Source: Echinarachnius parma
Lineage: Eukaryota; Echinodermata; Echinoidea; Clypeasteroida; Echinarachniidae
NCBI GenBank assembly: GCA_037951105.1
Contig: JBAMJV010004296.1
Coordinates: 124,001-188,000, forward strand
Direction: 5' to 3'
DNA length: 64,000 nucleotides
Shown: piece by piece, positions 1-56,384 of the stretch
Numbering within the stretch: the first letter of the stretch is position 1
Layout: each line of letters begins with the position of its first letter
The notes under the pieces: generated by a model
The model's input: the letters and a program-made list of their open reading frames with translations, nothing else
Told to the model about the DNA's origin: nothing
Databases searched by the model: none
Made by a program: the position numbers and the translations under genes

Positions 1-345
1 GCTCATCCATCACTGATTCTTGTACCAATAATTATATTATTTAACTGTTTTCAATGTATGATTTTGTAATGATTACTTCCATTTGTATCACTTGCCATGC
101 ACGAATGCCCCTGTCATGTTTTGTCATGTATGTGTCTTTTTTAGTTTTTAGTCTTGTTTGTATAAGTATATCTCGTAACTACTGTTCGGGAAACCATGCC
201 TCCACAATGCCACTTGGCCTTTTTTTTTTTGGTTCTCTATTTTCATTTTCTTGTATATTGCAACTTCGGCTTATTATTGTATATAGTTCTGTATTGTTTT
301 TTTTCGAAAATGGAAATTAATAAAAAAATTATTGAATTGAATTGA
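1..345 (+). mobile_element. LINE-like 3' tail
   Basis: The segment ends in CGAAAATGGAAATTAATAAA followed by reiterated TTGAA, the kind of simple tail left by some non-LTR elements. A comparable tail (AATAAAAACCGAATTTCAATT) ends the LINE fragment near 63365. No reverse-transcriptase coding is visible here, so family assignment is weak. Copy 2 repeats the part from 149 onward at 24736-24935. Confidence 0.4.
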
Positions 346-914
346 ATGTTGTATATTAAGTACTCAATCTAAAATGTATCATGCCAAAATAAATCCGCAG
401 TAATGTATGTGTACAACTTGAAATGTCTTAAATATGCATTTTTAGTCAACAGAACTAATATTATCGTAACTTGCGTAAATTGTATTTCCGTCGTTTCGTA
501 ACAGTAATATTAATACATCATTCGTGCATAGTATTATGAGATTAATATTGATATTTGATTGGTGCTTTTGATTATAACTAAGTATTGCAAACACGTTGTA
601 TGTTCAAAAGACTATGTTAAAAATGAATAAAGCAAAGCAAATCGGAATCAAATATGGCATATTCTTTGTGTACTTTATTTCAAAAGGCAGAGAGTAATAA
701 TGTGAGTGGTATAGCTAATTACAAGTCATTTGTAATCGGTAGAATAATTATACATTGTAGTGGCGTATACAGGGTCGCTCAAAGTCGGGACGGCGTACTT
801 GCAATAATAAAAACACATGATGACAAGGATCACTGCATAGGGCATCTTTTACAAAGAAAAGTGATACCAGGAAAAGTAATTTTGAACAGGTATTTTTTAT
901 TATATTTAGGATGG

Positions 915-1162
915 CTTAAGTGAGACCATGGCAGGTTCCCATTTTTGTTCAATTTTGACTAAGACAGTGCCTGATAAATCGCACTTACCACCCGTCATAA
1001 CATCGAACAACGTTTACGTGCGCCATTGTAAGTGTGCACTTAGCTGTGTGCTGGGAGAAGGGGCTCTGTTGTTTGATGCTTTGACTGGCAGGAATGTCGA
1101 TTTATCAGGCACTGACTTGGTAAAAATTGACAAAAATGGGAACCTGACATGGTCTCACTTAA
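915..1162. repeat. Foldback (hairpin) unit
   Basis: The stretch starts CTTAAGTGAGACCATGGCAG and ends with its near-perfect complement CATGGTCTCACTTAA. The arms pair further through the GGTTCCCATTTTTG and AGTGCCTGATAAATCG blocks, giving arms of about 75 bp around a 90-bp core. It sits at the centre of the mariner-like element and is also present in copy 2 at about 25942-26200. The short plus-strand ORF here is a by-product of the repeat. Confidence 0.75.
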
Positions 1163-2877
1163 AGGAGAAAATCAAAGAAAACCCCTACATATGACGATAT
1201 TCATATCTACAGAAAGCTTATAAGCCATATAATGAGCTTGACTGACATTCAAACAATATAACGCTTCCATAAAAGCGAAATTAGGGTGAAAACATCACCC
1301 TATTCCCAGGGACAAATTCGCTCAATCGATACACGAAACGGCCTTTAGCTGTGACGTAAGAACCGGGCTTGAAGCCCATGCGGCTGCCGCGGTTGTATGT
1401 AGATAAGCGTATAATATACCAGGCTGGAAAGACAAGCTTCAACTTATGTGCTATTTTTCCCTTACCAAGAATAAATTATAATACTACATTGTTTGTAATT
1501 TGCTTCTCATTTATATTTTCATCATGAAATTCCAACAAATGTATTGTTTGTGACAAAAAAAGTTGAAAAAGCCGGTGAAAAAAGAAGGGGAAACTATACG
1601 ACTGTGTCGTGCAGTAGGCCTGCACAGATTTGGGAGCAGGCGATTTTTTACCAACATGTAGTTTCACTTTGACATATATCAGACGGAGAATTTACCATTT
1701 CCATTATGGAAAGTTTGGAAACAAACAGTTAATAATCATTATGAATCAAATTAAATTTTAAAAAAACAAGAATAGTTATTACGTTAGTCGATCTATCATG
1801 GCTAGTTTCATGGTTTAGCTTGAATAGTCGAGTGAATTAGATTCGCGATCTCCTGTGTTGTTACGATTCATCCGCGATTTCTCTGAACATTGGCAGCCGC
1901 ATTACCTATACGGCTGATAGCGCTGGCGGATTTACATTTCCTGCGCGCGCATCAAAACAAACTAGTGCACGTGTTAGCTAGCTAGCTTGCTCCTCCACGG
2001 ATACTTCGAAGTCCATTAACAGGCTGTTTTGTTGAAATTCTTCATCCATGTTGAACTGTCAGATGTAATTCTAGAGCGAGATCGTGATCGTGTGGACTTT
2101 AGAAAGCTTCGAATATAGCGCATACGCTGGAACTAAGTTTAGTTCAATAACATACACAATATGCATAGTATACGGCCGGGTATACGATCGTGCGCTTGCA
2201 TGTATTTCTCGATGGACGAAACTTTTACGAAACGAAACAAAACCAAAACAAAACGGTGAGAAATACACTATTCTATGTAATTATACCAGTTATTGACATA
2301 TTGAAATGGATAAGAAATATTATATATTGTTATAACAAAGGCAATTCTAGCTCGGAACATGATTCTACTAGGTAATTTTGTTTTGAAACACAGCTATAAT
2401 AGATTTGTTTTTCATATCCGTGTACATATGAATAACAATTCGGCAAAATGGTGAGTTGTAAACAGTTATTTTACGGAGATTGACACTTTTTCAACGCCAA
2501 TAATGACATGAATATTGACATTAGGATATGTTTCAGGACATGGGAGGACAACTGTGTGTCGGATATTGATTATTCAGGCAATATTCAATCGTTTTGAGAG
2601 AGTAGAACTGCGTCCACTCTATGAACATTTGCGTGTAGATCGCCTTTCGAGCTAGAGCTGTCGGGAGCGCAAAGCCCGGCTCTTACGTCACGCACAGAGC
2701 CAATTTGCTGTGCCGATTTCATGGTAAAGGGGAGGGTCAATTCACTAAAATTTTATTTTCATAAAACATGAAACTGAACACTTTCATGACTTGTTAACTG
2801 CACAAATTGCTTTAATAACTCATTCTATCATAAAATAAACCATAATAACTTGATTCTATTCCCTTTGAATTTCTCCT
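1163..2877. mobile_element. TTAA-targeting TIR element (1.7 kb)
   Basis: Flanked by TTAA at 1159-1162 and 2878-2881. Termini are AGGAGAAAATCAAAG and CTTTGAATTTCTCCT. The copy-2 locus has a single uninterrupted CACTTAAGACGTCC, so insertion and target duplication are directly demonstrated. A second inverted pair lies inside (GTGACGTAAGAACCGGGCTT near 1350 against AAGCCCGGCTCTTACGTCAC near 2672). No transposase is recognisable. TTAA duplications are known for piggyBac and Kolobok transposons; I cannot choose between them. Confidence 0.88.
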
Positions 2878-3028
2878 TTAAGACGTCCTAAAAAAAACAC
2901 TACTCGACCAAAATTACTATTCTTGGTATAATTTTTCTTTGTAAAAGATGCCCTATCCCGTGAACGAAGTCATCATGTATCTGTATTATGGCAGGTACCC
3001 TGTTCCGTTTGTTGGGGGCCACCCTGTA

Positions 3029-4588
3029 TAGTCAGTTAAGTATGAGGCAGGCCCGTTTACTAGGGGCCACAACAATAACATCAATAAAACATAAACCACG
3101 CTGATTATCTTCATTATCTAGTGCATGTACAAAATATTCCTGTTTCTTATCAATAATGGTTATACACTCGATTCGCAATTGACTCTGGCTATGCACCCCG
3201 CTGTACTTTTAGGATGTAAAGTGCAAGATATATCGCACGTAATTGTTATTCATATACTGTATAGACACTGAATGGTGACAATTCTTAAAATGACGGATAT
3301 ATACACCTTCAGTCTGGTTCAGACAGGAATAAGAATTATGATTAATGTTATTTTACATAATAAAATGTGTATACGGTTTGAACATAGAGTATATGAAGCA
3401 AATTCAAATTGTTTGATATTTACATTTACAAAACACAATGATGGTCTGAATTCTCATAAGAGGGTGAATTGTATCCGTTAGCCATTATAAATGAATGGCT
3501 TAAATCAAAACGATAATTGTAAAACTCATTTCAGGCATGTGATACACGTCATAATGACAATAATAATTAACAGTTCTTCTACAGCGCATATCACACCAAG
3601 GTGTCAACAAGGTTATTGGAACAATAATACCTGAACAATTCAGATTCATTTCCCTAAAATTAGTACATTTATCTAAACAGTATAACAGCATATAGAATGT
3701 TTAAATTGACCTAAAATTACCTGATTTAATCAAAAGTTTCCCATCACTATGAGAATTCAGCCCAAACGAGATCATACACTGTGGTAAAAGGTGGAGTGAT
3801 ATGTGTTGAAGTCATTTATAAACAAAAGGTAAAACATAAACTAATGTATATACACTCAATTCCTTTTTATATATACATTATATTCAACGTTCACATTAAA
3901 CATCCAACAAAATGTACAGACAAAACAAATAATAATTATCAATGCAAATATTCAAGTACGTAGGCTATTATATACATACATTCATACAAAGATAACAAAA
4001 TTAGTTTATATTGCACATTATACAGAGAAAGAGTTGTAAACTGGATTTAATTCGTTAAATTTTAACTAGAGTTCAATTCTAAATTGATATTTTATTGCCA
4101 ATGTTAATTTCCAAACATGACATTGAACATTTACTTGAACATGTACTCTAATAATTTGTTATAACATAATGCTACAGCAATACTTAACTTGTTAAACTTA
4201 GGTATGTTTTTTGTTCTTCATTGTGTCAAATGCATTAAATAGAAGGTGCTAATTATAATCATCTCAAAAACATACACCGTACAAAACTGCATTAAAGGCA
4301 ATATCAAAGTATTTGCTTTATTGTGAATATTAAAAAGCCGTATCGTTAAGCATATGTGTTTTTTTTTATGAAAGCAATTCCATATAAGTTAACATCATAA
4401 TACTGATTATAACATAATCATGAAATAATTATATTACTAGTTGCAAAAGATAGATTAGTTATTGTAACAGTTAATCAACATTATTACAATTCTTAAAATT
4501 ATTCAATTTATCTAACTCTAATTTGAACACTGGCATGATCATACTTTTGGCATTTTACTTTCTTCCTTCCATTAATACTGTTTTCATA
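3029..4588. other. Duplicated non-coding stretch
   Basis: No gene, RNA or recognisable transposon is visible. Its value is as a nearly unmodified reference for duplication divergence, since copy 2 (26300-28650) matches almost base for base. It also contains the empty TTAA site at 4292-4295 corresponding to the 27589-28356 insertion. Confidence 0.6.
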
Positions 4589-4596
4589 TATTATCC

Positions 4597-5911
4597 GGCT
4601 TGGTACGAACAGTCACGTCACGTTCACGTTAACGTCACGTGAACGGTTCTGTACCTTTTGTGAAACAGGTCACCCAAATCTACGAAGTGTAGGGTAAAGT
4701 GACCCAACAATTTGTCGTTTTCCATGCCGGTAAAACTCGAAGTGTCGCGTTAACCAAATCGTGACGTGAGCGTTTAATCAAGATTTTTTAAATTGCAAAC
4801 GCTTGTTACTAAGACTAGACATACACGCACAAAGAGATTTAAAAATGTCGACGAAAATGCCGATACCCCCTTATCAAATCTTTTCAATCATTATGTTTAT
4901 AATATGTACGTGCATAATTCAGAGTAATCTGAGACGACGATAATATGCAGTTCTGTCATTTAGGGAATGTACAACCATACCACTTGCATTATTTGTCTTG
5001 TTATTGGAGTATTTCTAAAGACGTGTCGTGCGTGGATTTTGGCAAATGTTGATTTCCAGCTGAATTGCTACACGCAGCGGACAATTCAGTTCGCATACGC
5101 CTGAAGTTCCCGTGCTCGACGTCTGAGCGTACTGGCCCTTAACGGCGTTGTATGTGCATGCCTGTGAAAGTGAGTGAGTGAGTGAGTGAGTGAGTGAGTG
5201 AGTTGCAGTGATCAATGAGTTTAAAAGTAATAAAACAATGATTTGATTAATAGTGTTTATTTATGGTTATTGAATCGAGTCAATCTATAAATAAACAATC
5301 AATTAATCAGTCAATCATTATAATGAAACAATCACACCAACCAATCAATATTAAATAAATCAATTAATGTATTTGACATTCGAACTAGCTACTTGTAGGC
5401 AGTGGCGTACCCAGGATTTTTTCAAGGGTTGGGTGTAGGGGGGGATATTTCGTCAGACAAATTGAAGTAAGCGGGGGGAGTGTGCGTAGGGGGTGTCCGT
5501 AGAAAATGACCGCAGCCGAGGACGAGACCAGGACCGGTCACAAATTTCGAGGCCGAGACCAAGACATTTCTTGAATTATGTAAGGGGGTGGGGATGGGGG
5601 TAGGGGGTGTCCATCCCCCTGCCCCCAGGCCTGTGTACGCCTATAATTGGTATTTACAGTATCTATAGGTAGGACGGGTTCGTTCACGATTAAATTTACC
5701 GAGAATTAGTCTCTTCTCAACGACAATTTACATTAATTTGTTTTACGCAAGCGCCAATTTACGTGAGCTTTCATGAATTGCATATAGTATATCTACAAAC
5801 TGTTGGGTCACGTAACCCAACACTTCGTAGATTTGGGTGACCTGTTTCACAAAAGGTACAGAACCTTCACGTGACGTGACGTGAACGTGACGTGACTGTT
5901 CGTACCAAGCC
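4597..5911. mobile_element. TIR element with 8-bp target duplication
   Basis: Flanked by TATTATCC at 4589-4596 and again at 5912-5919; copy 2 has the single site TATTCTCC at 28653-28660. Termini are GGCTTGGTACGAACAGTCAC and the reverse complement, and the inverted similarity extends for about 110 bp through ACCCAAATCTACGAAGTGT. An 8-bp duplication is typical of hAT and P-like elements, but the ends do not start CAG, so the superfamily is open. Internal sequence (4843-5215) recurs at 32770-33110. A GTGA microsatellite lies at 5169-5202. Confidence 0.85.
5400..5644. mobile_element. hAT-like GGCGTACCCAGG repeat
   Basis: The left end CAGTGGCGTACCCAGG and right end CCTGTGTACGCCTAT are imperfect inverted termini of a family seen again at 19964-20697, 45134-46466 and in part at 40444-40633. 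The interior is G-rich with the family's CGAGACCAAGAC phrases. No coding capacity is seen. It is nested inside the 8-bp-duplication element. Confidence 0.6.
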
Positions 5912-5982
5912 TATTATCCTGCATCCTATTTGTAAATCGCCATCTGTTTCATTACTTGTACGCTTCTGCTTCATCTCCCACC

Positions 5983-6132
5983 TTTCTTCTTCTTCTTCTT
6001 CTTCTTCTTCTTCTTCTTCTTCTTCTTCTTCTTCTTCTTCTTCTTCTTCTTCTTCTTCTTCTTCTTCTTCTTCTTCTTCTTCTTCTTCTTCTTCTTCTTC
6101 TTCTTCTTCTTCTTCTTCTTCTTCTTCTTCTT

Positions 6133-6163
<31 letters not shown>

Positions 6164-6238
6164 TTCTTCTTCTTCTTCTTCTTCTTCTTCTTCCGATTCT
6201 TCTTCTTCTTCCGATTCTTCTTCATCTTCTTCACTTCT
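5983..6238 (+). repeat. (TTC)n microsatellite, copy 1
   Basis: About 250 bp of TTC repeats, pure for about 180 bp and then interrupted by TTCCGATTC variants. Long poly-Ser, poly-Leu and poly-Lys reading frames across it are artefacts. Confidence 0.97.
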
Positions 6239-6607
6239 TCAATTTCACCTCCCGTTTCTTCTTCTGTTATAACTTATTTTTTATTCTTTCTTCATTTATT
6301 CTTATTCGAATTATTCCCTCCTTGTCCCCTCCTCCTCATTCTCCTCCTATCCTTCTACTTCTCCTCCCTCTTCTTCTTTTTCAGCCTGTTCTTTTTATAA
6401 TTCTTACTGTTATTTTCTTACATCTTCTTCGTCTTCTTCTTATTTGAGTTTTCTTCTTTTACATTCAATTTAAAATATACAGTATCATACATGGGAACGA
6501 CAATATGGCCCAGGATAGCTAGAGATAGAGGAGAATGGAAATATCATAAGAAGTCCTGATAAATAGATAGATAGATAGATAGAATATTACACTGTGGACC
6601 TTGGCTA

Positions 6608-7822
6608 CACTCTCAAAAAAATGTTAACTAACTGGTTACAATTTTAACCAACAGTTGGTTTCCAGGTGAACCGACCAACTCTTGGTTAAAAGATTAACCA
6701 ACCCTAGTTGGTTACAAGTTTAACCAACTATTTATTAAAACTTTAACTAATTATTTGTTAAATATTTTTTAATCAACCTTAGTTGGTTACGATTATAACC
6801 AACTATTTATTAAAACTTTAGTTGGTTACAATTATAACCAGCTATTTATTAAAACTTAAACCAATTATTTGATGAATATTGTTAACCAACCCTGGTTGGT
6901 TAATAAAAGTAACCAACAGTTGCTTACATTTGCATCTATGTAAACAACTGTTGGTTAATTTTATTATCCAACCAACAATTGTTTGCAGGTAAGCCAAACA
7001 AAATTTACAAAACCATTCTATTGATCAATTTTAATAATACATTTGAAACCGTTAAAATTCCCACAATATTTTGAATATTGAGAAATGGTAGGGTGATTCC
7101 TATGTTGTGGAAGTGAAAGATCATTTTGCAAAAATACAATGGATACATATGGTTTAGCAATCCTACAACAGAAAGATACTGTACACTTAAGATTCCAATC
7201 AAAAACAGGAATACATTACGCCATTATATGATTGCCGATTCCCTGCCTGGTAATGATGTACCGTAATGCTGCTGCAGACTAGTCCCGACTCGTCCCGGGC
7301 TGGCAGCGCAGCGCGCTGCATGCATGCAGCAATCACTGGGAATTTGCCCGGGGCTGCATGGGGGAATTGGCGGTCACGTCACGGCGATTTTAACACATTT
7401 TTCAACATATTGTGGGAATGTTAACGGTTTCAAATGTACTATGTATTATTATTATTATTATAAAAATTAACCACTAGATTGGTATAGTAAATATTTGTTT
7501 GGCTTACCTGCAAACACTTTAATGAGGAATTCAAAACCCAACTGCTTGAGTTTTTCTGTTACACCTTCCACGATACTTAATTCTAGCCGAAATAATATTG
7601 CTGCGATCCCTTGTTTCTCATTGGCTAATTTCATGTCACATGTTCAAAACTTGTAACCAACTTCGAATGGCGGTAATTCCACATTATCTTTAACCAACGT
7701 ATGCGGAACGATCTTTAACAAACACCATTTTTAACCAACCATGTCACTTTAACTAACGATTGGTTATTTATTTTAACCAACCAGTTTTAATACATGAACA
7801 TTTTACCAGTGTTTTGAGAGTG
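6608..7822. mobile_element. TA-flanked TIR element with TTAACCAAC repeats, copy 1
   Basis: Flanked by TA. Ends read CACTCTCAAAAAAATGTTAAC and TTTTACCAGTGTTTTGAGAGTG, inverted relative to one another. The first ~350 bp are built from degenerate palindromic units combining TTGGTTA, TTAACCAAC and TATTTATTAAAAC, with spacings near 30-50 bp. A CpG-rich core (7290-7390) separates these from a right end containing the same motif. No ORF of interest is seen. Present at the orthologous place in copy 2, so it predates the duplication. Confidence 0.75.
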
Positions 7823-8038
7823 TAGACAAACACCATAACATGTATTATATATTGTCAATAAAGGACCCACGCACCAAATCTTTCCGAGTTATTCTCTTGA
7901 AATTTCGACAACTTACTTAAATATCATCACAAAGTTCAATCTCATGATAAATAGGTCAACTGCGGACAAAGAAAATGAATTACACCTGTCAATTTTGCTT
8001 GAAAACACCTGTCTGTTTTCTAGATATTTTATGTAAGA

Positions 8039-8266
8039 TTACATATACATGTAATAATGTCCGGCTTTCATCCGCACGTGTCTCATGTACGCTTCCACAC
8101 GCTGCTTAAACACTTGGAATAACGCGTTCGTGGCATGAGCAACCATTGCCATCTCCTCAATCTCCGTCAACACATTAACATAAATGGCCACTGCATCATC
8201 TCTCTTCACGCCCGTTCGGGAATTAATGAATAACCCAACAAACGACCAATCTGTCAACGTGGTCAA
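8039..8266 (-). CDS. Candidate coding exon, unknown gene (copy 1)
   Basis: A 75-codon minus-strand frame, preserved in the duplicate at 31155-31385. The two copies differ by four base substitutions, all synonymous (Ala GCC/GCT, Phe TTC/TTT, Arg CGA/CGG, Gly GGC/GGT), and by one inserted AAG/GAA-type codon that keeps frame (I-E-E-M against I-E-K-E-M). This is a purifying-selection pattern. The C-terminal half is amphipathic with basic residues (F-K-Q-R-V-E-A-Y-M-R-H-V-R). There is no ATG at the open end; a possible acceptor is GTTGACAG just inside it, so this is probably an internal exon. I do not recognise the family. It ends about 850 bp upstream of the gene A start, on the opposite strand. 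Confidence 0.45.
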   Translation of the reverse strand: MTTLTDWSFVGLFINSRTGVKRDDAVAIYVNVLTEIEEMAMVAHATNALFQVFKQRVEAYMRHVRMKAGHYYMYM

Positions 8267-8290
8267 TCATTAAATGGGTGCATGTTTTAA

Positions 8291-8825
8291 AGGGGTAGTT
8301 CAGTTTTGGTAGAGAGGGCGCTGCACAACACAATTCTTGGTGAGGTAATGAAAAACTGAGTGTCAAATTTGGAAGGATATGCAATTTTAATCGCAGAATA
8401 AACTTTATTTGGTCAAAATCGGTTCAGAAATGGCTGAAATATCAATAAATATATCTGATCGTAATAAATTTGGGCCCAAAATGTATTCGATGATTTTTGT
8501 TTTAAATAATAAAAATGCTTACACTTTTTTAACAATTTTCTAAAGGGGTTTTGTAATAGTTGTTGATGATCTCTCTATATATTCATTATTACAACAAAAC
8601 ATCACATGCATAATTTTGTATGAAAAATGGTTAAAACCAATGCCTTTTTAGAGAGCGCCCTTTTGTGTTTTAATGGCTCTCTTTTGATGATAACAGGCTT
8701 TTTACTTAGTCGTTTGTAATTTTGCATCCCTTTCGATCACGGCGGAGTTATAACTATTAGTTTGTAATGTTACTGTGCAGGTTTTGGTTACTTAAGTACA
8801 GCCTTATCAAAAGTGCACTATCCCT
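8291..8825. mobile_element. TTAA MITE family M, copy in duplicate 1
   Basis: Flanked by TTAA on both sides. Ends read AGGGGTAGTTCAGTTTTGGT and AGTGCACTATCCCT. The body carries the family landmarks GAGGGCGCTGCAC, AAAATCGGTTCAGAAATGGC, AACAAAACATCAC and GATAACAGGCTTTTTAC. Family copies recur at 17795-18318, 31410-31944, 48282-48828, 56485-57045 and 57321-60256. No coding capacity is seen. Confidence 0.85.
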
Positions 8826-9110
8826 TTAACATTGTCACATTACGACTCTTCTGCGTTCATTATGCTTATGACCGCCCGGCTGCCAACCCACGCCCCTTTC
8901 ATCCTTTGTGCAATATGTTTCACCTGTTCATCCTGACCTGATAACACATGCAACATTTTAAATTAGCACAGACAATATTATTACGAGAACTTCAAGATTG
9001 ATAGTGTTAACGATTATGTACATCAATTAAGCATTCACATAGGATTTTACTCCAAACAGTTGACTGTACTAATCAACCATATTTGATTTGGCTATACCTG
9101 AGCTATAAAG

Positions 9111-9522
9111 ATGAATAACTTTGATATTGAAAGATCGCGCATATTAGTATGCGTAGTTGTGCTTATGCTGTCTGACGTTCCTGGTGCCACAGGTCTATCT
9201 TGCACAGTTTCTAAGTCGCACTACAGTAGTGGATGGGAAGAGGTTGAATGTAAAGCAACAGAAAGTGAGATCAGCGGTGAGGGTGTAGAGGACTATACCA
9301 CTGTCTGCTTTCAAAATTCCAGAAAGGCAACTTTCAACGAACATGGCGACCTGAAGGTCTTCTGGAAGGAACCTAATGTAACCATCAATTGCTGTCTGAC
9401 AAAAGACATGAGCAATACATATACACATTCATGTAGAGACTTTGTTTACCCACCATCAGCTCCAGATGATGAGGCGTTTACAGACATTGGCTACACTAAT
9501 GATCAACCACTAACACATTTTG
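9111..9522 (+). CDS. Gene A exon 1: signal peptide and Cys-rich Ig-like ectodomain
   Basis: ATG at 9111 opens a frame with a short polar N-terminus and a hydrophobic signal core (residues 11-20, I-L-V-C-V-V-V-L-M-L), with likely cleavage after Gly-Ala-Thr-Gly. A roughly 90-residue Cys-rich domain follows: L-S-C, V-E-C, V-C-F-Q-N, V-F-W-K-E-P, N-C-C and finally S-C-R-D-F-V-Y-P, plus an N-V-T glycosylation sequon. The exon stops at the donor GTGAGT (9523), leaving one base. Phase then matches the exon at 16334. The same domain occurs in genes A', B and C. The pattern recalls an Ig-like fold with extra cysteines, but I cannot name a known family. Role in recognition or immunity is inference. Confidence 0.8.
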
Positions 9523-11102
9523 GTGAGTAGACGATGCTTTTAAGTTTAACTGTATCCGGTGTATTCAGAAAGGTGACTTTAAATTTCTCTTTTTGAATGT
9601 GTGAGAGTGAGAGTGTGTGCTTGTTGTGGTACTGTTTTGGCAACATAAGGTGTTATATTAAAAGAGCCTTTCATATATGTACATGTACAAATCTGAAATC
9701 TCTGGGAAGTTTGTATAACATACAACAGTTCATACCTTTTGGGTAAATCTATCCGAGTAATCTTCCTTTCTCGGGGAGTAAATGGGAAAGTTGATGTATG
9801 TGTGGTGTCGTATAATATGTGCAACCAGATCATTTTTTAATGAACGTAAACTCGTGGATGAAACGAAGGTCGAACTTTCATTCATAAAGCAAGGAGTATT
9901 CACATGTTAGATTAGAAATGTCTGATACAATATTTTATATAATAATTCTGATACTGTGTTTATTGCAGACGGTTTAGAAGTATGCTAAGCTCTGAACAGC
10001 AATTTAACCTAGGGCTTAACATTTCAAATACAATGCAATTTAAAAGAATAGCGTATTGGCGAAATTCACTACTTGTATGATTCATATTATGATTTAGGTA
10101 ACCATTTCTATACCAATATAATTATGTAATTTCAAACATGATCCTATATTTCAAATGTAAACTGAGACCATACCATTGAATATAACTCTACTCATGTTCA
10201 TATAAATGTATGAATGTATAGATGTAACTCTTATGTCTTAATGTATCCCTTTCTCGTTCTGCCTTTCTCCTTTTCCCTTTTATTCTCTTTCTCATCTTCT
10301 CTCCTTTTACCCTTTCCCCTTTCCCTGTTCTTCTTTGTTTCGGTATCTCGCTCGCCACTCTCTTGCCCTTTCTTAATTTTAATTTGTATAATGGTGTTTT
10401 ACGCTATGCTGTTTGATGTTTTAATGGTGCTGTTAAGAATTGATCAAAGAGACTATATCATTCGTTGATTGTCCAATTTAAGTGCACCTTTGAACAGACT
10501 AAACCTAAGATGAAAGTATTTTATCTCGTTAACTTCGCAATTCTTAGCGAATACATTGACCTTTCAAACGAAAACCCATTAACGAATAAATTAAAAATAA
10601 TTAATATAGTTTTGCGAACGCGAATTTTGGTGTTATTCAAGTTAAAGCCATATAACACTATAGTGAACATTATGGGAATATATTCTGTTGGCCCAACAAA
10701 TTGATCGACATGATTGAAATAGTTTAAGATAGGTACTTTAAAAAATGTTATATCACACGTCAATCAACTTACTTATTGGGTTTAGGTTGTGAAATATGAA
10801 CCATAACATCTAAACGTGGACAAATAAGGAAAATTCCAAGCACCCCCGATAAGGTTGAGCAGTGCATTAAGCGGCGCATAGATTGTTGGCCCGCGGGACT
10901 CTCCCGGCATCGAGTCTTGCTGATATCCGACGGCTAGCTGGTCTGCCACGAGCGGCAGGGCTTGCGTGTGATTTGCATGTAATGTGCGGATAAACATTTC
11001 AAAATATAACCGTCGGCAATATCGATCTGTATCTGCAGATGAAATTAAAAACGGTACGGAATATTCACAATGCGTAATTGTGTGCGTTGAGAGTCGTATA
11101 AG

Positions 11103-11136
<34 letters not shown>

Positions 11137-11177
11137 CGTCCGTCAAAAATGTTCGAAGCCGATACCCGGGCCACTTG
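9523..11177. other. Gene A intron 1, proximal part
   Basis: AT-rich intron sequence with a pyrimidine-rich stretch at 10245-10370 and no recognisable exon. From 11104 there is an uninterrupted G run of about 33 bases. Short frames across it show no domain features. Confidence 0.5.
11104..11137. repeat. Poly-G run
   Basis: About 33 consecutive G residues in gene A intron 1. Poly-Gly and poly-Pro frames here are artefacts. Run length may not be accurate in the assembly. Confidence 0.9.
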
Positions 11178-11181
11178 TTAA

Positions 11182-11546
11182 AGGGATTGTCTAAATCCTC
11201 AAAATCCAATTGGAATTCTCGCGGTTCCCTCATACCTTGTTGTATTCGTTTAAACAATAAAAGCATATGAAAGGTTTCGGTTTTTCAAATTTCCCTTTCG
11301 TTAAAAAAATATTTAAGATTGAAATGTTCAGATGTAAAATTATCCACTGGACCGTCAAAACCATGTACAAAATGAGCTAGTGAATATCACTTTGCATTTG
11401 TGCTCATTACTCGGCCATATAACTTCCATTTGACCTATTTTCACACATTACTTTCTGGACAGATCAGATCACACCAATACACATTTTATTATTTTATCTA
11501 ACCATGCATCACTTTTTGCACTTGTCAACACAGCTACTATATCCCT
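11182..11546. mobile_element. TTAA MITE family N
   Basis: Flanked by TTAA at 11178-11181 and 11547-11550. Ends AGGGATTGTCTAAATCC and GCTACTATATCCCT. A relative lies at 54797-55127, sharing TTTCAAATTTCC, ATCACACCAATACACATTTT and CTTTTTGCACTTGTCAACA. Non-coding. Confidence 0.75.
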
Positions 11547-11550
11547 TTAA

Positions 11551-12978
11551 CCCTAAGAAGGCCGGGGGGGCCATAATGCCCCCCTCCGCGATTGTTTTAT
11601 TGCTCCAAAACGCGGAAGGATGACGCGCCGCTGCTTGGTGACTTTTTTCTTTTAAAACAAAAAAATTGAAAATCGGACCTACCGTTACGAAGTCACGTGA
11701 CCTTTTATCTATGCATGTCAGCCAGAAAATCGCTCAATTTCGTGATTTGTGTACAAAATATCAGAAAATATCAGATTTCGTAAAAGGAGGTACATATCAT
11801 TGGTTATTTGGTCTTGTTTACATTTTATATCTTTGTTTTGGGGTTCAAAATATACTCCGCAAAAAAAGAAACTGGACACTTGTATGAGACCAAATATTTC
11901 GTATTCATTAACGATAAAATATATGATATTGTATATCAAATTAAAGATAAAATTACCCTCTTCAATATTCGCATAAAATCCAGATGAAATCATTCATGCA
12001 TGACTTGTCACGGTCAATTAACCACACCAAGGTCTGTTTTCAAAAATAGCAAAGATGGAACATTCACTCAACCATATAAATGTTGATAAGCATAATCTAA
12101 AACGCTATATTCATGAGATGGCATAATTTTGCATTACAAATGTGACATTATCTATCTTCATCTCAATAAAGAGTATGAATGAAGACAAATTGTGAACGTT
12201 ATAGCTGTTATTTTCATCCAAAAGTAACAAAATGGGGAATTCCATGGCAAAGCTTTATTAGTCAAAACCACAGTTTGTGCCCTTATTTCAGCATGAAAAT
12301 GGTATAAATTCTTCTCAAGAATTATACCGTAATCCAAAGATCTTCAAAACCTGAAGTCACCCTTGGTCAAACATTTGGGCAGTCTTTAACATGACATTTC
12401 TCTAGGTAACTATGGTTAAAATTGCAGAGGAAACATGAAATAGACAAGCTTCATGCCTGTAATACAGGCCAGTATGATAAAGCTTTCATAATCTGGCCCT
12501 GTTTCATTGACAAATTTATATTTCCAGAGTTTGTTCATAACAATAAAGTTGAATAATGTCATAATTTACTTGCCCCGCTCATCTTGTTTTAAGTGAAACG
12601 CTTACTATCATTTCAGTCGAATGGTGTGGTCCTCCATTGTTTTGCTATTTTTGAAAACAGACCTTGCTAATGTTAATTGACCATGGCATTTCATGCATGA
12701 ACGATTACACCTTTAAGTTATACCCTGCATGTAGAGAACTAAATTCCCTTTAATTTGATATATGATCATGTACACTTTATCGTACATTAATATGAAATAT
12801 TTCAACTTATACAAGTGTCCAGTTTCTTTTTTTGCGGAGTATAGTTGAATTATAGTTGGAAATAAAATAAACAACAAAAACAATAAAATACAGAAGTAAA
12901 AAAAAAAGCAAAGAAATACTGTACATGAGAAATTATAAAAACAATAGAAAACATAAGGAAGAACCTGGCTCTACCAAA
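11551..12978 (-). mobile_element. piggyBac-like TTAA element fragment, interrupted
   Basis: The end CCCTAAGAAGGCCGGGGGGG follows TTAA at 11547. The following ~300 bp match 28356 back towards 28020 in reverse orientation, including TCACGTGACCTTTTATC and GGTTATTTGGTCTTG. The match stops at 11853 and resumes at 12842, where a separate element is inserted. It runs on to ACCTGGCTCTACCAAA near 12978 without reaching the other terminus, so this is a 5'-truncated fragment. TTAA followed by CCCT is typical of piggyBac ends. Confidence 0.7.
11853..12842. mobile_element. TA-flanked TIR element (about 1 kb)
   Basis: It begins TACTCCGCAAAAAAAGAAAC and ends GTTTCTTTTTTTGCGGAGTA, a nearly perfect inverted pair of about 30 bp, flanked by TA as in Tc1/mariner elements. 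The interior has a second inverted pair (CTATTTTTGAAAACAGACC). It splits the piggyBac-like fragment and is therefore younger. No transposase is seen. Confidence 0.88.
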
Positions 12979-13840
12979 CTGTTTAATTTCGATATTGATT
13001 AAAGTCGCTGTAGGTTTACTTTTTGCACAAAGTAGTCGCTGTAGATTCTTAAAGTAAAAAGAAAAATATAAGATTTTTGGTACCATTTTTAATATGTGCT
13101 AAAATGACATTCGTATTGTTGATATTAAATTTAAAACTAAGCGGTCGCGCGTAATATTCATGCCCTTAAAATAGTATTGAAAATATGCATTTGTATATTA
13201 GATTTTGAAATTTGTATACGCATAGTACAGGGCAAGGGTACCCCATATTAATGGCATGCACATTTTGATATTAGATTTTGTATACGCACAGTACTAGCAG
13301 TCCACTCCATATTAATTATATTTGCACAATCTCGTGCGCGGCTGAGTATCCATTTTGCGTAAAAGGATTTGATATAAAATATGACTATGTTTGGTGAAAT
13401 ACATTGTACTTTGTCTGTTATATCCTATTATTATTGGAATATGCCAGTTTGTATATATTGTAATTATACAATACGCTCATAGAAAACGAACGCTCACCTC
13501 AAGTATTCAATTTATTAAATAGGAAGGTTAAAGTAAGAATTTCGATATTGACTAAAATCGCTGTAGGTTTACTTTTTGCATTTTGTCCGCTTAATTGTTT
13601 TAAAATGGTATTTGATATTTAGTAATTATTGTTGTTGCTGATGCTTAAGGATATGACTTCTTTATTCCGGATGCGCCTTTTGTTATTTAATTGAATTAGA
13701 AATACATGTATTTAATAATATTATCATATCATCATATTATGATGATTGAATTCATTTTATTCAGTAAATTGTTACATAATGTATTATATTGTATTACGTT
13801 TAAGCCCTGCATTGACAGTTATGCGTCATGTCCTGGGCTA
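12979..13840. other. Gene A intron 1, AT-rich part
   Basis: No exon or mobile end is recognised. Two short direct repeats occur (GATATTGA-TTAAAGTCGCTGTAGG near 12991 and a variant near 13543; TATACGCA-AGTAC near 13216 and 13284). These suggest local duplication. Confidence 0.4.
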
Positions 13841-17794: not shown

Positions 17795-18318
17795 AGGAGT
17801 ACGTAGTTCAGTTTTGGTATAGAAGGCGCTGCACAACATAATTTGTTGGTGAGATAATAAACAAAATGAGTGTAAAATTTGAAATGGCATACAATTTTAA
17901 TGACAGAATAAACTTTATTTGATCAAAATCGGTTCAGAAACGGCTGAAATATCAAAATCCGATCAGAATAAATCTGGGGTCCAGATTTATTCGATAATTT
18001 TATTTTTTTTTAATTTAAATTGCGTACACTATTTCAAAAATGTTCAAAAGAGGTTTTGTAATAGTTGCTGATGATTTCTTTTTTTAATTATAATTTCAAC
18101 AAAACATCACCTGCATAATTTTGTATGAAAAACGGTTGAAACCAACGCTTTCTAGAGAGCGCCCTATTGTTAATTTGTTAATGATAACAGGCTTTTTACG
18201 TAGTCGTTTGTAATTTGTTATACCTTTCGAGCATGGTGGAGTTTATAACTATTAGTTTGTAATGTTATTATGCAGGTTTGGGTTACTAAGCTCAGCCTTG
18301 CCAAAACTGTACTACCCC
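17795..18318. mobile_element. TTAA MITE family M, gene A intron 2
   Basis: The left end is degraded (AGTTCAGTTTTGGTATAGAA) and the right end is ACTGTACTACCCCT before TTAA. It has the family body motifs, including AAAATCGGTTCAGAAACGGC and GATAACAGGC. Sequence just upstream (17560-17790) is homologous to the gene C intron at 61800-62050. Confidence 0.75.
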
Positions 18319-18562
18319 TTTAAAAGTAAAATTTAGTGGAGACTTAAAGTATGATTGCCCTACAATTGCTCATTCTTTATAATTGGTCTTATCATGGGTA
18401 CCACGAAATAATTTTCATAATTTACAGTTGCATGAATACAAATAAATATTTAGTGTGAATCATTCAAAAACGGGCTATATCGAAAAGCGGGGCTACAAAG
18501 ATGTTCAAATCTATTAATTTCCCACACTAACCGCTAACTATTTATACTATCCCATTCACTAG

Positions 18563-21097: not shown

Positions 21098-21735
21098 GTT
21101 TTACGGGGCCCTGGACCATTTTTTCTTACATATGTTAGACCACTGAATTTGACGCTGTTCACGTTTATCATCCTGTCTACGTTTCTGTTCACTGGTATCT
21201 CGTCGAGCCCGTGGCCCATAGGGACTAACTTTACTCGAACATTCACGCATGAGCTTACCTTGCAAGATGGGACTGAAACCAGGTCACGAGGGACGCGTTG
21301 ATGTACAACTTTCTTTAGACAAAAGAAACATAACGATTGCATTTTTTATCAGTAAGCTAGAGAAAACTGATGATGGTGACTATCTGGCAATTATAACAGA
21401 AGATAATCAAGACGACTTCCTTTTCAAGACATATTCCACTGATGTCACCGTATCATTTCCACCTGGAAAAGCTGAGTGTGAGTTTCAGGAACCCACGATT
21501 CTAGTTCAAAATTGGCTTACTATCCACTGTAATGCTACCGCTGGGAGTATTGACAACCAAGGACATCTAATCTGTCATCAAAACTCGAAGCAACTACCAC
21601 ACCTACAACCTGTATCGCATGTTGGTGACCAGTTATGTGCTGTATTCTGGGTGGATCCTGAATTGCAAGCTAGATGTTGTTCGACTAACAGTACCACCTC
21701 GATCGACCTGAACTCTTGTACTGATTTTGTGTACC
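21098..21735 (+). pseudogene. Gene B ectodomain: Ig-like segment plus Cys domain (broken)
   Basis: From 21249 the frame reads an Ig-like D-E-F strand region (G-R-V-D-V-Q-L-S-L, N-I-T-I-A, then E-K-T-D-D-G-D-Y) but without the usual F-strand Cys. After P-P-G-K-A-E-C-E-F comes the same Cys domain as gene A: I-H-C, L-I-C-H-Q-N, V-F-W-V-D-P, R-C-C, N-S-C-T-D-F-V-Y. Upstream, the strand with the core Trp (S-V-H-W-Y-L) and the stretch L-T-L-Q-D-G-T-E lie in two other frames separated by stops. That implies at least two frameshifts. After F-V-Y the frame runs into a pyrimidine microsatellite with no donor. I call it a decayed Ig-plus-Cys receptor; use of only the in-frame part is possible. Confidence 0.6.
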
Positions 21736-24735: not shown

Positions 24736-25311
24736 TAGTCTTGTTTGTATATTATATCTCGTAACTACTGTTCGGGGAACCATGCCTCCACAAGGCCACT
24801 TGGCCTTTTTTTTGGGGGGGGGGGGGTTCCCTATTTTCATTTTCTTGTATATTGCAACTTCGGCTTATTATTGTATATAGTTCTGTATTGTTTTTTTCGA
24901 AAATGGAAATTAATACAAATTAATTGAATTTAATTGAATTTTGTATATTATAGTTCTTAATCTAAAATGTATCATGCCAAAAGAAATCCTCAGTAATGTA
25001 TGTGTACAACTTGAAATTTCTTAAATATGCATTTTCAGTCAACAGAAGAATAAAATATTATCGTAACTTGCGTAAATTATATCTCCGTCGTTTTGTAACA
25101 GTAATATTAATACATGATTCGTGCATAGTATTATGAAATTAATATTGATATTTGATTGGTGCTTTTGATTATAACTAAGAATTGCAAACACGTTGTATGT
25201 TCAAAAGACTATGTTAAATATAAATAAAGCAAAGCAAATCGCAATCAAATATGGCATATTCGTTGTATACTTTATTTCAAAAGGCAGTGAGTAATAATGT
25301 AAGTGGTATAG

Positions 25312-25756
25312 ATTCGGTGGATTCACAATACAGTGCGCCACCTATCGGTTGCAGCGGACAGGCCAATTTCCAACTTCGGGGTCGACATCACAGTACATGT
25401 GATGTGCATGTTGTGGCAAGATTGGTAGAGCGCGCGCTTTCCGATCATGAGATCCCGAGTTCGAACCCTGCCCCTGCTCCCTGGGGAGTTGAGAAAGTAT
25501 CCAATATCATTGTGTGGGTTTGAAATGTACCTGTTGACCATGGGTAATAATAATTAAATAATTATTTAAGCGCTTAGAGGCTCTTTGCAATTTGCGCTAT
25601 ATAAATGTCTATTATTATTATTATATTACAGCTTAGCACCACTGAGCTGTATACGGCCTTATATTTCGATGTCGACCATTTCCTATGAGGCATTGCGGAT
25701 TTCGGCCTGTCCGCTGCAACCGATAGATGGCGCACTGTATTGTGAATCCACCGAAT
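25312..25756. mobile_element. TIR element carrying a SINE, copy 2 only
   Basis: Inverted arms of 53 bp (25312-25364, 25704-25756), one mismatch, beginning ATTCGGTGGATTCACAATAC. The corresponding site in copy 1 (near 712) lacks it, so it inserted after the duplication. No clear target duplication is visible. The centre is occupied by a tRNA-derived SINE. Confidence 0.85.
25403..25625 (+). mobile_element. tRNA-derived SINE with LINE-like tail
   Basis: A pol III A-box-like TGGCAAGATTGGTAGAG (25414) and a B box AGTTCGAACCC (25458) lie in a tRNA-like head. The tail GCGCTTAGAGGCTCTTTGC...GCGCTATATAAATG ends in ATTATTATTATT. The tail resembles the 3' end of the LINE fragment at 22046-22420, consistent with LINE-mediated mobilisation. 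Not a functional tRNA gene: no proper acceptor or anticodon stem. Confidence 0.82.
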
Positions 25757-27588: not shown

Positions 27589-28356
27589 CCTTAAAAAGGC
27601 CGGGCTATTTGAGGTCTTCAGCAGGCCGGGGGGGGGGGGGGGGGGCATTATGCCCCCCCCCCCCCCCCCCTAAGATCTCGGCCGCCGTGAAAATTTGCAC
27701 GTATGGTGAGTGAAGTGTATAGAATACAATGGTAATTTTAATTTTTTTTTAAATTCATTAATTTGCATATTTATGGTAATTTATGCAAATAAGGTCATAA
27801 AATTCATATTTGTAACCATAAATCATATTCTTCATAATTAAACATTGGTTCTCACTACATGTATTCTTTAGAGCATTTTGGAATAATAATGCGACAACAA
27901 AATTTGGAAGAGCCAGGTTCTTCCTTATGTTTTCTATTGTTTTTATAATTTCTTATGTATTTCTTTGTTTTTTAAACTTATGTATTTTATTGTTTTTGTT
28001 GTTTATTTTATTTCTAACTATAATTCATCTATTTTGAACCCCAAAACAAACATATAAAATGTAAACAAGACCAAATAACCAATGATATACTTCCTTTTAC
28101 GAAAACTGATATTTCCATATGTTTTGTACACAAATCACGAAATTGAGCGATTTTCGGGCTGACATGCATAGATAAAAGGTCACGTGACTTTGTAACGGTA
28201 GGTCGGATTTTCAAATTGTTTGTTTTAAAATATGCGCAAGACCCAAAAGAAAAAAGCGCGTCATCTTACAGCGTTTTGGAGCAATAAAAAAAATTGCGGA
28301 GGGGGGAGGGGGGGGGGCATTATGCCCCCCCCCCCCCTCCCCCGGCCTTATTAGGG
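27589..28356 (+). mobile_element. piggyBac-like TTAA element with poly-G/poly-C hairpins
   Basis: Flanked by TTAA at 27585-27588 and 28357-28360; copy 1 has a single TTAA at 4292-4295. Ends CCTTAAAAAGGCCGGG and CCGGCCTTATTAGGG are inverted. Near each end a G run, CATTATG and a C run form a perfect hairpin. The short minus-strand frame inside is unlikely to be functional. Fragments of the same family are at 11551 and 60375. Confidence 0.9.
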
Positions 28357-28723
28357 TTAAAGGCAATATCAAAGTATTTGCTTTATTGTGAATATTAAAA
28401 ACCCATATCGTTAAGCATATGTGTTTTTTTTATGAAAGCAAGGCCATATAAGTTAACATCATAATACTGATTATAACATAATCATGAAATAATGATATTA
28501 CTAGTTACAAAAGATAGATTAGTTATTGTAACAGTTAATCAACATTATTACAATTCTTAAAATTATTCAATTTATCTAACCCTAATTTGAAGACTGGCAT
28601 GATCATACTTTTGGCATTTCACTTTCTTCCTTCCATTAATACTGTTTTCATATATTCTCCTGCATCCTATTTGTAAATCGCCATCGGTTTCATTACTTGT
28701 ACGCTTCTGCTTCATCTCCCACC

Positions 28724-29231: not shown

Positions 29232-30938
29232 CACTCTACAAAAATTGTTAACTAACTGGTTACAATTTTAACCAACCCTAGTTGGTTACAAGTTTAACCA
29301 ACTATTTATTTAAACTTTAACTAATTATTTGTTAAATATTTTTTAATCAACCTTAGTTGGTTACGATTATAACCAACTATTTATTAAAACTTTAGTTGGT
29401 TACAATTATAACCAGCTATTTATTAAAACTTAAACCAATTATTTGATAAATATTGTTAACCAACCCTGGTTGGTTAATAAAAGTAACCAACAGTTGCTTA
29501 CATTTTCATCTATGTAAACAACTGTTGGTTAATGTTATTATCCAACCAACAATTGTTTGCAGGTAAGCCAAACAAAATTTACAATACCATTCTACTGATG
29601 AATTTTAATAATACATTTGAAACCGTTAAAATTGCCACAATATTTTGAATATTGAGAAATGGTAGGGTGATTCCTATGTTGTGGAAGTGAAAGATCATTT
29701 TGCAAAAATACAATGGATACATATGGTTTAGCAATCCTACAACAGAAAGATACTGTACACTTAAGATTCCAATCAAAAACAGGAATACATTACGCCATTA
29801 TATGATCGCCGATTCCCTGCCTGGTAATGATGTACCATAATACTGCTGCAGACTAGTCCCGACTCGCCCCGGGCTGCCAGCGCAGCGCGCTGCATGCATG
29901 CAGCAATCACTGGGAATTTGCCCGGGGCTGCATGGGGGAATTGGCGGTCACGTCACGGCGATTTTAACACATTTTTCAACATATTGTGGGAATGTTAAAG
30001 GGCAATGAAACCCTTGCAAAATGTTGCTTTCATAGTCTTGAAAAGATTAAGAAGAATAATCTCTGAAAGTTAGAGCATAATCGGGTAAGAAACAAGAAAA
30101 CTACGGCTCTTTGAAGATGTCCATTTATTCCTATGGGGAACTCAAATTGGCAACGCACTCTGATAAGTGTGTGGACAACTCCCCATAGGTTTTGTACACA
30201 AATGTTCCCATTTTTACAGTTTTCTTCATAGTCACATATTTCCATTCCTCCAACTCACGATATTTTATGTATAAAAGCATTCTACAAAACATATGTTGAA
30301 CTGGAGCGAAGGGTAAACATATATTTTGAGAAAATTGAAAAAAAAATGAAATTGTGTGTACAAAATGTATGGGGAGTTGTCCACAACTTTGTCAGAGTGC
30401 GTTGCCAATTTGAGTCACTCGAAGAAATACATGGCTCTTTTCAAAGAGCCATAGTTTTCTTATTTCTTGACCGATTGTGCTCAAATTTTCAGAGGTATTC
30501 ACTATACTTAGTGTCTTATAGTGCATACAACAATTTGTCTGGGTTTCATTGTCCTTTAACGGTTTCAAATGTACTATAAAAATTAACCACTAGATTGGTA
30601 TAGTAAATATTTGTTTGGCTTACCTGCAAACACTTTAATGAGGAATTCAAAACCAAACTGCTTGAGTCTTTCTGTTACAGCTTCCACGATACTTAATTCT
30701 AGCCGAAATAATATTGCTGCGATCCCTTGTTTCTCATTGGCTAATTTCATGTCACATGTTCAAAACTTTTAACCAACTTCGAATGGCGGTAATTCCACAT
30801 TATCTTTAACCAACGTATGCGGAACGATCTTTAACAAACACCATTTTTAACCAACCATGTCACTTTAACTAACGATTGGTTATTTATTTTAACCAACCAG
30901 TTTTGGTACATGAACATTTTACCAGTGTTTTGAGAGTG
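29232..30938. mobile_element. TA-flanked TIR element with TTAACCAAC repeats, copy 2
   Basis: Counterpart of 6608-7822, with the same CACTCTC ends and the same palindromic TTGGTTA/TTAACCAA units, one unit shorter at the left. It has been split by a younger TTAA insertion at 29999-30555. Confidence 0.75.
29999..30555. mobile_element. TTAA MITE, AGGGCAATGAAACCC ends
   Basis: Flanked by TTAA (29995-29998, 30556-30559); copy 1 has one TTAA in AATGTTAACGG near 7422. Ends AGGGCAATGAAACCC and GGGTTTCATTGTCCT are inverted with one mismatch. Long inverted arms continue inward (TTGGCAACGCACTCTGA against TCAGAGTGCGTTGCCAA), each containing GGGGAGTTGTCCAC. The frames in the arms mirror each other and are not genes. 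Confidence 0.9.
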
Positions 30939-31154
30939 TAAACAAACACCATAACATGTATTATATATTGTCAATAAAGGACCCACGCACCAAATCTTTC
31001 CGAGTTATTCTCTTGAAATTTCGACAACTTATTTAAATATCATCACAAAGTTCAATCTCATGATAAATAGGTCAACTGCGGACAAAGAAAATGAATTACA
31101 CCTGTCAATTTTGCTTGAAAACACCTGTCTGTTTTCTAGATATTTTATGTAAGA

Positions 31155-31385
31155 TTACATATACATGTAATAATGTCCAGCTTTCATCCGCACGTGTCTC
31201 ATGTACGCTTCCACACGCTGCTTAAACACTTGAAATAACGCGTTCGTGGCATGAGCAACCATTGCCATCTCCTTCTCAATCTCCGTCAACACATTAACAT
31301 AAATGGCCACTGCATCATCTCTCTTCACACCCGTCCGGGAATTAATGAATAACCCAACAAACGACCAATCTGTCAACGTGGTCAA
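31155..31385 (-). CDS. Candidate coding exon, unknown gene (copy 2)
   Basis: This is the 76-codon duplicate of 8039-8266. Apart from one extra Lys codon (I-E-K-E-M) the predicted protein is identical, although four bases differ. That makes it more likely to be coding than the many other short frames here. No partner exon or known domain could be identified on the minus strand nearby. Confidence 0.45.
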   Translation of the reverse strand: MTTLTDWSFVGLFINSRTGVKRDDAVAIYVNVLTEIEKEMAMVAHATNALFQVFKQRVEAYMRHVRMKAGHYYMYM

Positions 31386-31409
31386 TCATTAAATGGGTGC
31401 ATGTTTTAA

Positions 31410-31944
31410 AGGGGTAGTTCAGTTTTGGTAGAGAGGGCGCTGCACATCACAATTTTTGGTGAGGTAATGAAAAACTGAGTGTCAAATTTGGAAGGATATG
31501 AAATTTTAATCGCAGAATAAACTTTATTTGGTCAAAATCGGTTCAGAAATGGCTGAAATATCAATAAATATATCTGATCGTAATAAATTTGGGCCCAAAA
31601 TGTATTCGATGATTTTTTTTTTTTAATAATAAAAATGCTTACACTTTTTCAACAATTTTCTAAAGCGGTTTTGTAATAGTTGTTGATGATCTCTCTATTT
31701 ATTCATTATTTCAACAAAACATCACATGCATAATTTTGTATGAAAAATGGTTAAAACCAATGCCTTTTTAGAGAGCCCCTTTTGTGTTTTAATAGCTCTC
31801 TTTTGATGATAACAGGCTTTTTACTTAGTCGTTTGTAATTTTGCATCCCTTTCGATCACGGCGGAGTTATAACTATTAGTTTGTAATGTTACTGTGCAGG
31901 TTTTGGTTACTTAAGTACAGCCTTATCAAAAGTGCACTATCCCT
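31410..31944. mobile_element. TTAA MITE family M, copy in duplicate 2
   Basis: Counterpart of 8291-8825 with TTAA at both sides and the same ends. It differs by scattered substitutions and small indels and gives a local measure of neutral divergence close to the receptor exon. Confidence 0.85.
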
Positions 31945-32226
31945 TTAACATTGTCACATTACGACTCTTCTGCGTTCATTATGCTTATGACCGCCCGGCC
32001 AACCCACGCCCCTTTCATCCTTTGTGCAATATGTTTCACCTGTTCATCCTGAACTGATAACACATGCAACATTTTAAATTAGCACAGACAATATTATTAC
32101 GAGAACTTCAAGATTGATAGTGTTAACGATTATGTACATCAATTAAGCATTCACATAGGATTTTACTCCAAACAGTTGACTGTACTAATCAACCATATTT
32201 GATTTGGCTATACCTTAGCTATAAAG

Positions 32227-32610
32227 ATGAATAACTTTGATATTATAAGATCGCGTATATTAGCATGCGTAGTAGTGCTTATGCTGTATGATGTTCCTGG
32301 TGCCACAGGTCTTTCTTGCATAATTTCTGAGTCGCACTACAGTAGAGGACGGGAAGAGGTTGAATGTCAAGCAACAGAAAGTGACAGCAGCGGTGAGAGT
32401 TTAGAGGACTATACCACGGTCTGCTTTCAATATTGCAGAAAAGCAACTTTCTACGAACAGAACAGCTTAAAGGTATTTTGGAAGGAACCTAATGTACCAA
32501 TCAATTGCTGCCTGACAAAGGACAGGAACAATACAGATACAGATTCATGTAGAGACTTTGTTTACCCACCATCACCTTCAGATGATGAGGCGTTTACAGA
32601 CAATGAGTGA
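32227..32610 (+). pseudogene. Gene A': truncated paralogue of gene A exon 1
   Basis: A 127-codon frame with the same signal peptide and Cys domain as gene A, all domain cysteines included (plus one extra, Q-Y-C-R-K). The duplication ends at 32602 and the frame then hits TGA after D-N-E. Splice donor, stalk and membrane exons are absent, so it could at best encode a secreted domain. It differs from A at 26 of 125 residues, including loss of the N-V-T sequon (N-V-P) and W-to-R after the first Cys. Upstream ~270 bp are nearly identical to A, so promoter elements may be shared. Confidence 0.75.
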
Positions 32611-43149: not shown

Positions 43150-43162
43150 TTCACTATTGTAC

Positions 43163-43471: not shown

Positions 43472-43558
43472 TTTCAATGCGCCCTTTCCCCCAGCATTTT
43501 TCCCGGCAAACTAGTGCATGGACATGGTGCAATTCGCTATACAATTGCCGCAGCCATA

Positions 43559-55924: not shown

Positions 55925-56384
55925 ATGAACGTCGTAAGTCAATACGTTTTACGTTTAGGATTTACCCTTCTGTCGGTCTGCATGTTGGTAGTGCTTCAAT
56001 GCGACGCATCAGAAACATTATCGTGTCGCATTGGTAATTCCTATTACAGTGATGAATGGAAATACTGTACGTGTAATGCCATTCTTGATGGGAATGCAGA
56101 AGACTTCCATATCGTCTGCTTCCAAAATGGTACAAAAGCGACATTCCAATATACAGATAACGGTGATGGGTCACTGAATAGGCCTGGAAGTGATAATGCG
56201 ACTCGGGTTAATATACTATTTTGGATGGATCCAAGTAAGACAATAAACTGTTGCAAAACAAACGATATATTTGGTGTTCAAGCATCCTTGTGCAATTAAT
56301 TTGTCCATCCAATAACTAAAGCTTCCAACACATCTATTGCGAACGCTCAAGACACTGATGATCATTCTGGAATGCGACACATTG
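55925..56384 (+). pseudogene. Gene C exon 1: Cys domain with an in-frame stop
   Basis: ATG at 55925, then a signal peptide (L-R-L-G-F-T-L-L-S-V-C-M-L-V-V-L). The Cys domain is homologous to gene A: L-S-C, C-T-C, I-V-C-F-Q-N, I-L-F-W-M-D-P and N-C-C. Where A has C-R-D-F-V-Y-P, gene C has C-N-stop-F-V-H-P, with TAA at 56297-56299. The frame stays open after the stop to donor GTAAGT (56385), leaving one base, in phase with the exon at 61676. A single nonsense change therefore explains it; a short secreted form of 124 residues, readthrough or a sequencing error are alternatives. Sequons N-G-T and N-A-T are present. Confidence 0.7.

Follow-up and report, generated by a model that had tools for sequence, protein, structure and literature searches.

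Results

Two copies of a first exon in the window

The window, the whole stretch of 64,000 nucleotides analysed here, carries two related copies of the first exon of a predicted receptor-like gene, which we call A and B, together with a more distant third copy and a damaged second exon (Table 1). The original prediction had placed the A exon at 9111..9486. We ruled out 9486 as the exon end, as A has a donor-like site (G/GTGAGT) at 9523; positions 9486 and 32602 mark the point within the exon at which homology between A and B stops, and the two copies have no common 3′ flank. No donor-like site for exon 1 of B was found in the stretch read. The third copy encodes a protein about one-third identical to that of A. 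The damaged exon 2 runs at its 3′ end into a CTTTT-rich simple repeat, and no other exon 2 was found in the window. A tblastx search for exons downstream of A was unproductive, much of the result being repeats, as was mapping of the region downstream of B with one long query, which was dominated by a repeat.

The window also contains other elements. Further copies of the dispersed repeat in the shared 5′ flank lie at 17803-18323, 31406-31942, 48278-48832 and 56480-57049, and one repeat copy ends where homology to four of the genomic relatives described below (L012, L013, L014 and L026) begins. An element of about 1.3 kb at 42696-44000 contains an internal inverted repeat and recurs, at 95-98% identity, in at least 30 other places in the genome, and the minus strand of 50771-51232 holds a reverse-transcriptase fragment (RVT_1, E = 7.9e-25). 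An open frame on the minus strand of 46938-47348, whose motif appears Ig-like on inspection by eye, had no meaningful Pfam match. A search of a plasmid collection gave no match.

Table 1. Features of the window and their positions
Feature	Position	Strand	Observation
5′ flank of A	7456..9110	+	Near-identical to B 30572-32226, 25/1651 mismatches
Dispersed repeat of about 530 bp in the shared 5′ flank	8287..8823	+	Other copies in the window, on both strands
Putative recombination junction in A	9073..9129		5′ side B/L012-type, 3′ side L010/L009-type; triplet scan and change point 9129
Exon 1 of A, predicted signal peptide and cysteine-containing domain	9111..9522	+	Open frame to donor-like site at 9523
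Damaged exon 2 of the same family	21270..21734	+	Preceding exon-2 piece in another frame
5′ flank of B	30572..32226	+	Counterpart of A flank 7456-9110
B/L011 divergence island	31943..32542		21 substitutions and a 14-bp gap; L011 on contig C10939
Exon 1 remnant of B	32227..32602	+	Homology to A stops at 32602, before a donor
Third, more distant exon-1 copy	55925..56384	+	In-frame TAA at 56297, donor-like GTAAGT at 56385

A and B belong to a large receptor-like family

We searched the host assembly (1.2 Gb in 14790 contigs) with exon 1 of A and found at least 28 genomic matches, six of them on the window's own contig. Twenty genomic stretches were fetched and 22 copies of exon 1 were read, namely A, B and one per stretch. 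Twelve are open with a donor-like site, eight are broken or frame-shifted, and two (B and L015) are open and have no donor-like site. One broken copy, L009, is located close to a contig end, on a contig rich in indels, and its frame breaks may be assembly errors. The donor-like sites form two classes, one around offset 361 and the other around 400-418. Exon 2 has at least 151 matches in the genome, and a stop-free match lies 1-7 kb downstream of L010, L012, L014 and L017. Two copies on contig C9938, L017 and L018, are near-identical, with no silent and one replacement change in the exon; the exon-2 match near L017 is stop-free and that near L018 has two stops.

These results suggest that A and B are members of a large receptor-like family, partly arranged in tandem. 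Exon 1 is predicted to encode a signal peptide and a cysteine-containing domain, and exon 2 a V-like Ig domain plus another domain of the exon-1 type. A Pfam search with exon 1 gave no match. Its structural model (pLDDT 56) had weak matches to nanobody-like Ig folds (best E = 0.028), and exon 2 of L010 matched Ig_3, V-set and I-set at E values of 0.02-0.05, below the curated cut-offs. The modelled exon-1 domain thus weakly resembles Ig-like sandwiches.

With no donor in B and damage to the one exon 2 found in the window, it may be that neither A nor B makes a receptor. Both are probably decaying; several other copies, among them L010, L012, L014 and L017, look intact in the exons seen. Neither A nor B is a good example of a working, diversifying receptor, though A need not be dead.

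Divergence between A and B rises abruptly in exon 1

We aligned 7456-9486 globally with 30572-32602, taking exon 1 as 9111-9486 in A and 32227-32602 in B. There were 67 mismatches at 2027 sites: in exon 1, 42 of 376 bases and 26 of 125 residues differed, exactly as predicted, and in the 5′ flank 25 of 1651 bases (Fisher p = 4.9e-16). The inequality of exon and flank persisted in this alignment. The initial 18 coding bases are identical and the earliest exon mismatch lies at 9129, which is also the best single change point (two-unit support 9090-9129; none of 2000 shuffles was as strong) and agrees with the jump that the original prediction had placed there. Over the 270 bp upstream of the ATG we found two substitutions at 267 aligned sites, as had been predicted, and an indel of three bases, not four.

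Silent sites take part in the jump. Codons 1-100 differ by 13 synonymous changes (roughly 12 had been estimated) and 24 non-synonymous ones, giving pS 0.209, pN 0.101 and, after correction, a dN/dS of 0.44; exon differences at codon positions 1, 2 and 3 number 17:10:15. Silent divergence in the exon is far higher than in the near flank (2/258), which bears out the earlier claim of a raised silent rate. Farther upstream, in blocks spanning 149-7424 (compared with 24736-29998), A/B divergence is 2.2-8.6%, against 0.7% adjoining the exon. One crossover does not explain this rise away from the exon. We also considered whether flank identity generally rises towards the exon and rejected this, as it does so in A-B and not in A-L015.

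A joins a B-type 5′ flank to an exon 1 of another class

We found that the exon and the flank of A have different nearest relatives. Over 100 codons, exon 1 of A differs from L010 by 0.5 synonymous and 7.5 non-synonymous changes, whereas in the flank at 9012-9110 A differs from L010 at 7 of 99 sites and from B and L012 at 1 of 99 each. Upstream of 9012, both L009 and L010 have sequence different from that of A. The exon of A is therefore almost identical at silent sites to two copies with another 5′ flank while its own flank is B-type, and A is, as judged from these alignments, a recombinant. Triplet scans of A located the break. With L012 set against L010, the counts were 103:5 on the left and 6:23 on the right (0/5000 shuffles); with B against L010, the break fell at 9084-9100, with 97:0 on the left and 28:35 on the right (2/5000 shuffles).

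On its 3′ side A follows L009 as far as 12984, with 50 mismatches in 4057 columns by blastn; a global alignment of the same comparison gave 138 mismatches in 3945, so that the distance depends on the alignment, L009 being indel-rich. Because A matches the copy on contig C9336 from 9012 to 12984 and B only on the 5′ side, what the comparison shows is one junction, at which a B-type 5′ region meets an L009-type gene, and not a swapped cassette. It had been proposed that the exon was replaced through a diverged paralogue. Recombination is upheld by conflicting trees, by other recombinant copies (see below) and by the exon-side relatives of A, L009 and L010, among the paralogues; the word replacement does not fit A, which has one junction.

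Exon and flank trees conflict across the family

An exon tree (9129-9410) was built from 20 of the 22 copies, with L027 and L028 left out, and a flank tree (9012-9110) from 16, with L021, L022, L023, L025, L027 and L028 left out. The flank tree groups A, B, L011, L012 and L015 at 98/98 and L017, L018 and L024 at 100/100, and the exon data reject both groups (AU p = 0.003 and 0.014). Conversely, the exon tree joins A, L009 and L010 with weak support (55/23), and the flank rejects that group (p = 0.0005). Together, the triplet scans and AU tests indicated that different parts of single copies have different nearest relatives, beyond chance.

Three further copies are clean recombinants in or beside exon 1. 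L024 combines an L017-type 5′ region with an L020-type body, with a break about 70-120 nt inside the exon (312:4 on the left, 3:98 on the right). L025 has an L021-type 5′ part and exon, followed near the exon end by an A-type intron (310:41, 8:204), and in L012 the break falls some 65-79 nt into the exon (101:9, 15:39); 0/5000 shuffles matched any of the three. L015 was rejected as a recombinant (824/5000 shuffles, not significant).

The rise of silent divergence was surveyed in 190 pairs drawn from all copies read except L023 and L028 (20 of 22), pairs that are not independent of each other. Flank divergence was below 6% in 21 pairs; 14 of them combined at least four silent changes with an exon silent divergence at least threefold that of the flank, and 7 did not. 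Longer profiles of six pairs gave a raised exon in B-L011, L017-L024 and L009-L010 and no rise in A-L009, L016-L019 and L021-L022. We do not rely on the L009-L010 island (25/340 against 29/1879), given the indels of L009.

A bounded tract between B and its counterpart

B and L011 are near-identical over 29301-36902, with 74 substitutions. L011 lies on contig C10939, which is probably the other haplotype. There are no substitutions between 30691 and 31943 and none between 32542 and 32919, where one 16-bp gap occurs. The densest 490-bp window holds 20 substitutions, a density that 0/2000 shuffles reached, and over 29301-36400 the exon differs at 15 of 362 sites compared with 43 of 6351 in the rest (p = 2.5e-7). 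The tract is bounded on both sides only in this comparison, not in A-B, and a two-sided island of about 0.6 kb is what a conversion tract would leave. At 33511-34400 lies a tandem array of units of about 178 bp, in which a gap of roughly two units separates B from L011.

The genome search yielded no donor for the B exon other than L011; with L011 and A set aside, the best full-length match reached 89%. We also compared base sharing, using nine of the 22 paralogues. At 32 of the 42 A/B differences the base of B is already present in these nine (expected 0.20 per site, 0.41 at variable sites), and at the other 10 it is absent from them.

Alternative explanations

The original prediction held that positive selection alone would not raise silent divergence, which is fair; it did not weigh selection acting together with conversion that homogenises the flanks, which also yields a peak of divergence (PMC3924837). 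Conversion would then keep A and B alike in their flanks, selection for different ectodomains would hold the exon apart, and linked silent sites would escape conversion as well, with no exon transfer. This model predicts silent changes within the peak, as that report describes for human opsin exon 5, and both the minimum of A-B flank divergence beside the exon (0.7%, higher far off) and the bounded B-L011 island fit it. On selection for difference, the values obtained are the A-B dN/dS of 0.44 and, as raw counts, the 7.5 non-synonymous against 0.5 synonymous changes of A-L010. However, it leaves unexplained why the exon and following intron of A match the L009/L010 types of another flank class; no A-B flank block, the most diverged of them being at 8.6%, reaches the exon pS of 0.209, and the A-L015 flank has no gradient. 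Selection on both proteins is also doubtful, since B has no donor and damage affects the exon 2 located after A. We therefore regard this explanation as rather unlikely for A and B, and it may apply to part of the family.

Alternatively, A could be a false chimera, assembled from reads of different copies or haplotypes joined at the shared block. The parents share only about 450-500 bp at the breaks, where mis-joins are possible, and the assembly is in 14790 contigs with many indels in L009. Against this, two other contigs, C10939 and C4548, and other parts of C4294 hold similar recombinants, the B-type flank occurs with the B-type exon on two contigs (C4294 and C10939), and the window is without any N; we judge an artefact very unlikely. 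Hypermutation targeted to exon 1, raising silent and replacement changes alike, would suit the raised silent divergence of many pairs and the 10 bases private to B among the paralogues compared, but we rejected it as scarcely credible on the conflict between exon and flank trees (AU tests), the 32 pre-existing bases and the three of six profiled pairs in which the exon is not raised.

Discussion

We consider it probable that the copies of this family recombined with one another at the edges of exon 1, and that the junctions arose by ectopic recombination or conversion. Around the break, the parents share one unbroken stretch of homology: 454 bp in A (parents B and L010), 445 alignment columns in L024 and 504 in L025. 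In two of these cases, separate parental matches of lesser length lie farther away. Exon 1 plus about 100 bp upstream is the contiguous block still homologous between subgroups, and unequal crossing-over and gene conversion between copies would resolve inside it. In A, a B-type 5′ region is joined to an L009/L010-type exon 1 at 9073-9129, and the copy continues as L009 into the intron. Because the breaks lie in parental homology, ordinary ectopic homologous recombination, reciprocal or not, suffices to account for the break sites and would make such joins without special machinery. Several observations run against recombination as the best explanation: no donor for the B exon was found beyond L011, the A, L009 and L010 group is weak, L015 is not significant, flank divergence is non-uniform, and three of the six profiled pairs have no raised exon.

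The suggestion that this is a cassette-exchange system diversifying the receptor family found no support, given breaks in shared homology, a truncated B and a damaged exon 2 in the window. A dedicated system would be expected to exchange a defined unit with fixed borders; the break positions seen here vary between recombinants and appear to fall within homology shared by the parents. It is a speculative and, in our view, improbable extension that recurrent recombination diversifies the membrane-distal domain, so that the exon body is exchanged and the promoter region is kept along with much of the signal peptide, that this is still segregating between haplotypes (B and its C10939 counterpart), and that truncated copies like B serve intact genes as an exon reservoir.

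The relatives and break intervals described here show how a large receptor-like family reshuffles its first domain, and they can serve to test whether ectodomain diversity can arise through ordinary ectopic recombination. They also carry a warning: a diverged exon within a near-identical duplication proves, by itself, neither selection nor a dedicated system.

Comparison with known systems

In exon 5 of the human red and green opsins, a diverged exon lies inside flanks kept alike by gene conversion (Teshima and Innan; PMC3924837). Exon 1 resembles that peak in diverging amid flanks that stay alike, and differs from it in that the A exon is recombinant by its other flank class, the function of A and B is doubtful, and there are many copies, not two. 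The GOT1 paralogues of the copepod Tigriopus likewise have islands of divergence under conversion, with new haplotypes formed by conversion and one paralogue decaying (PMC3728101); those data concern an enzyme gene in several populations, and ours a receptor-like family in one genome.

The sea urchin Sp185/333 (SpTransformer) genes form a tandem immune family with segmental duplications and suspected conversion (PMC3091723). There the genes and their near flanks are conserved and bounded by microsatellites, whereas here the near flanks are alike and the exon differs; it is a looser parallel, likened by description and without sequence comparison. The polymorphic transmembrane clusters of Biomphalaria (GRC, PTC) are reportedly also invertebrate clusters of diverse membrane-type genes and are again likened by description, no transmembrane exon having been established here. 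In a large family whose exon 1 has no Pfam match, the process described here adds one more case to a kind of gene-family shuffling that is already known.
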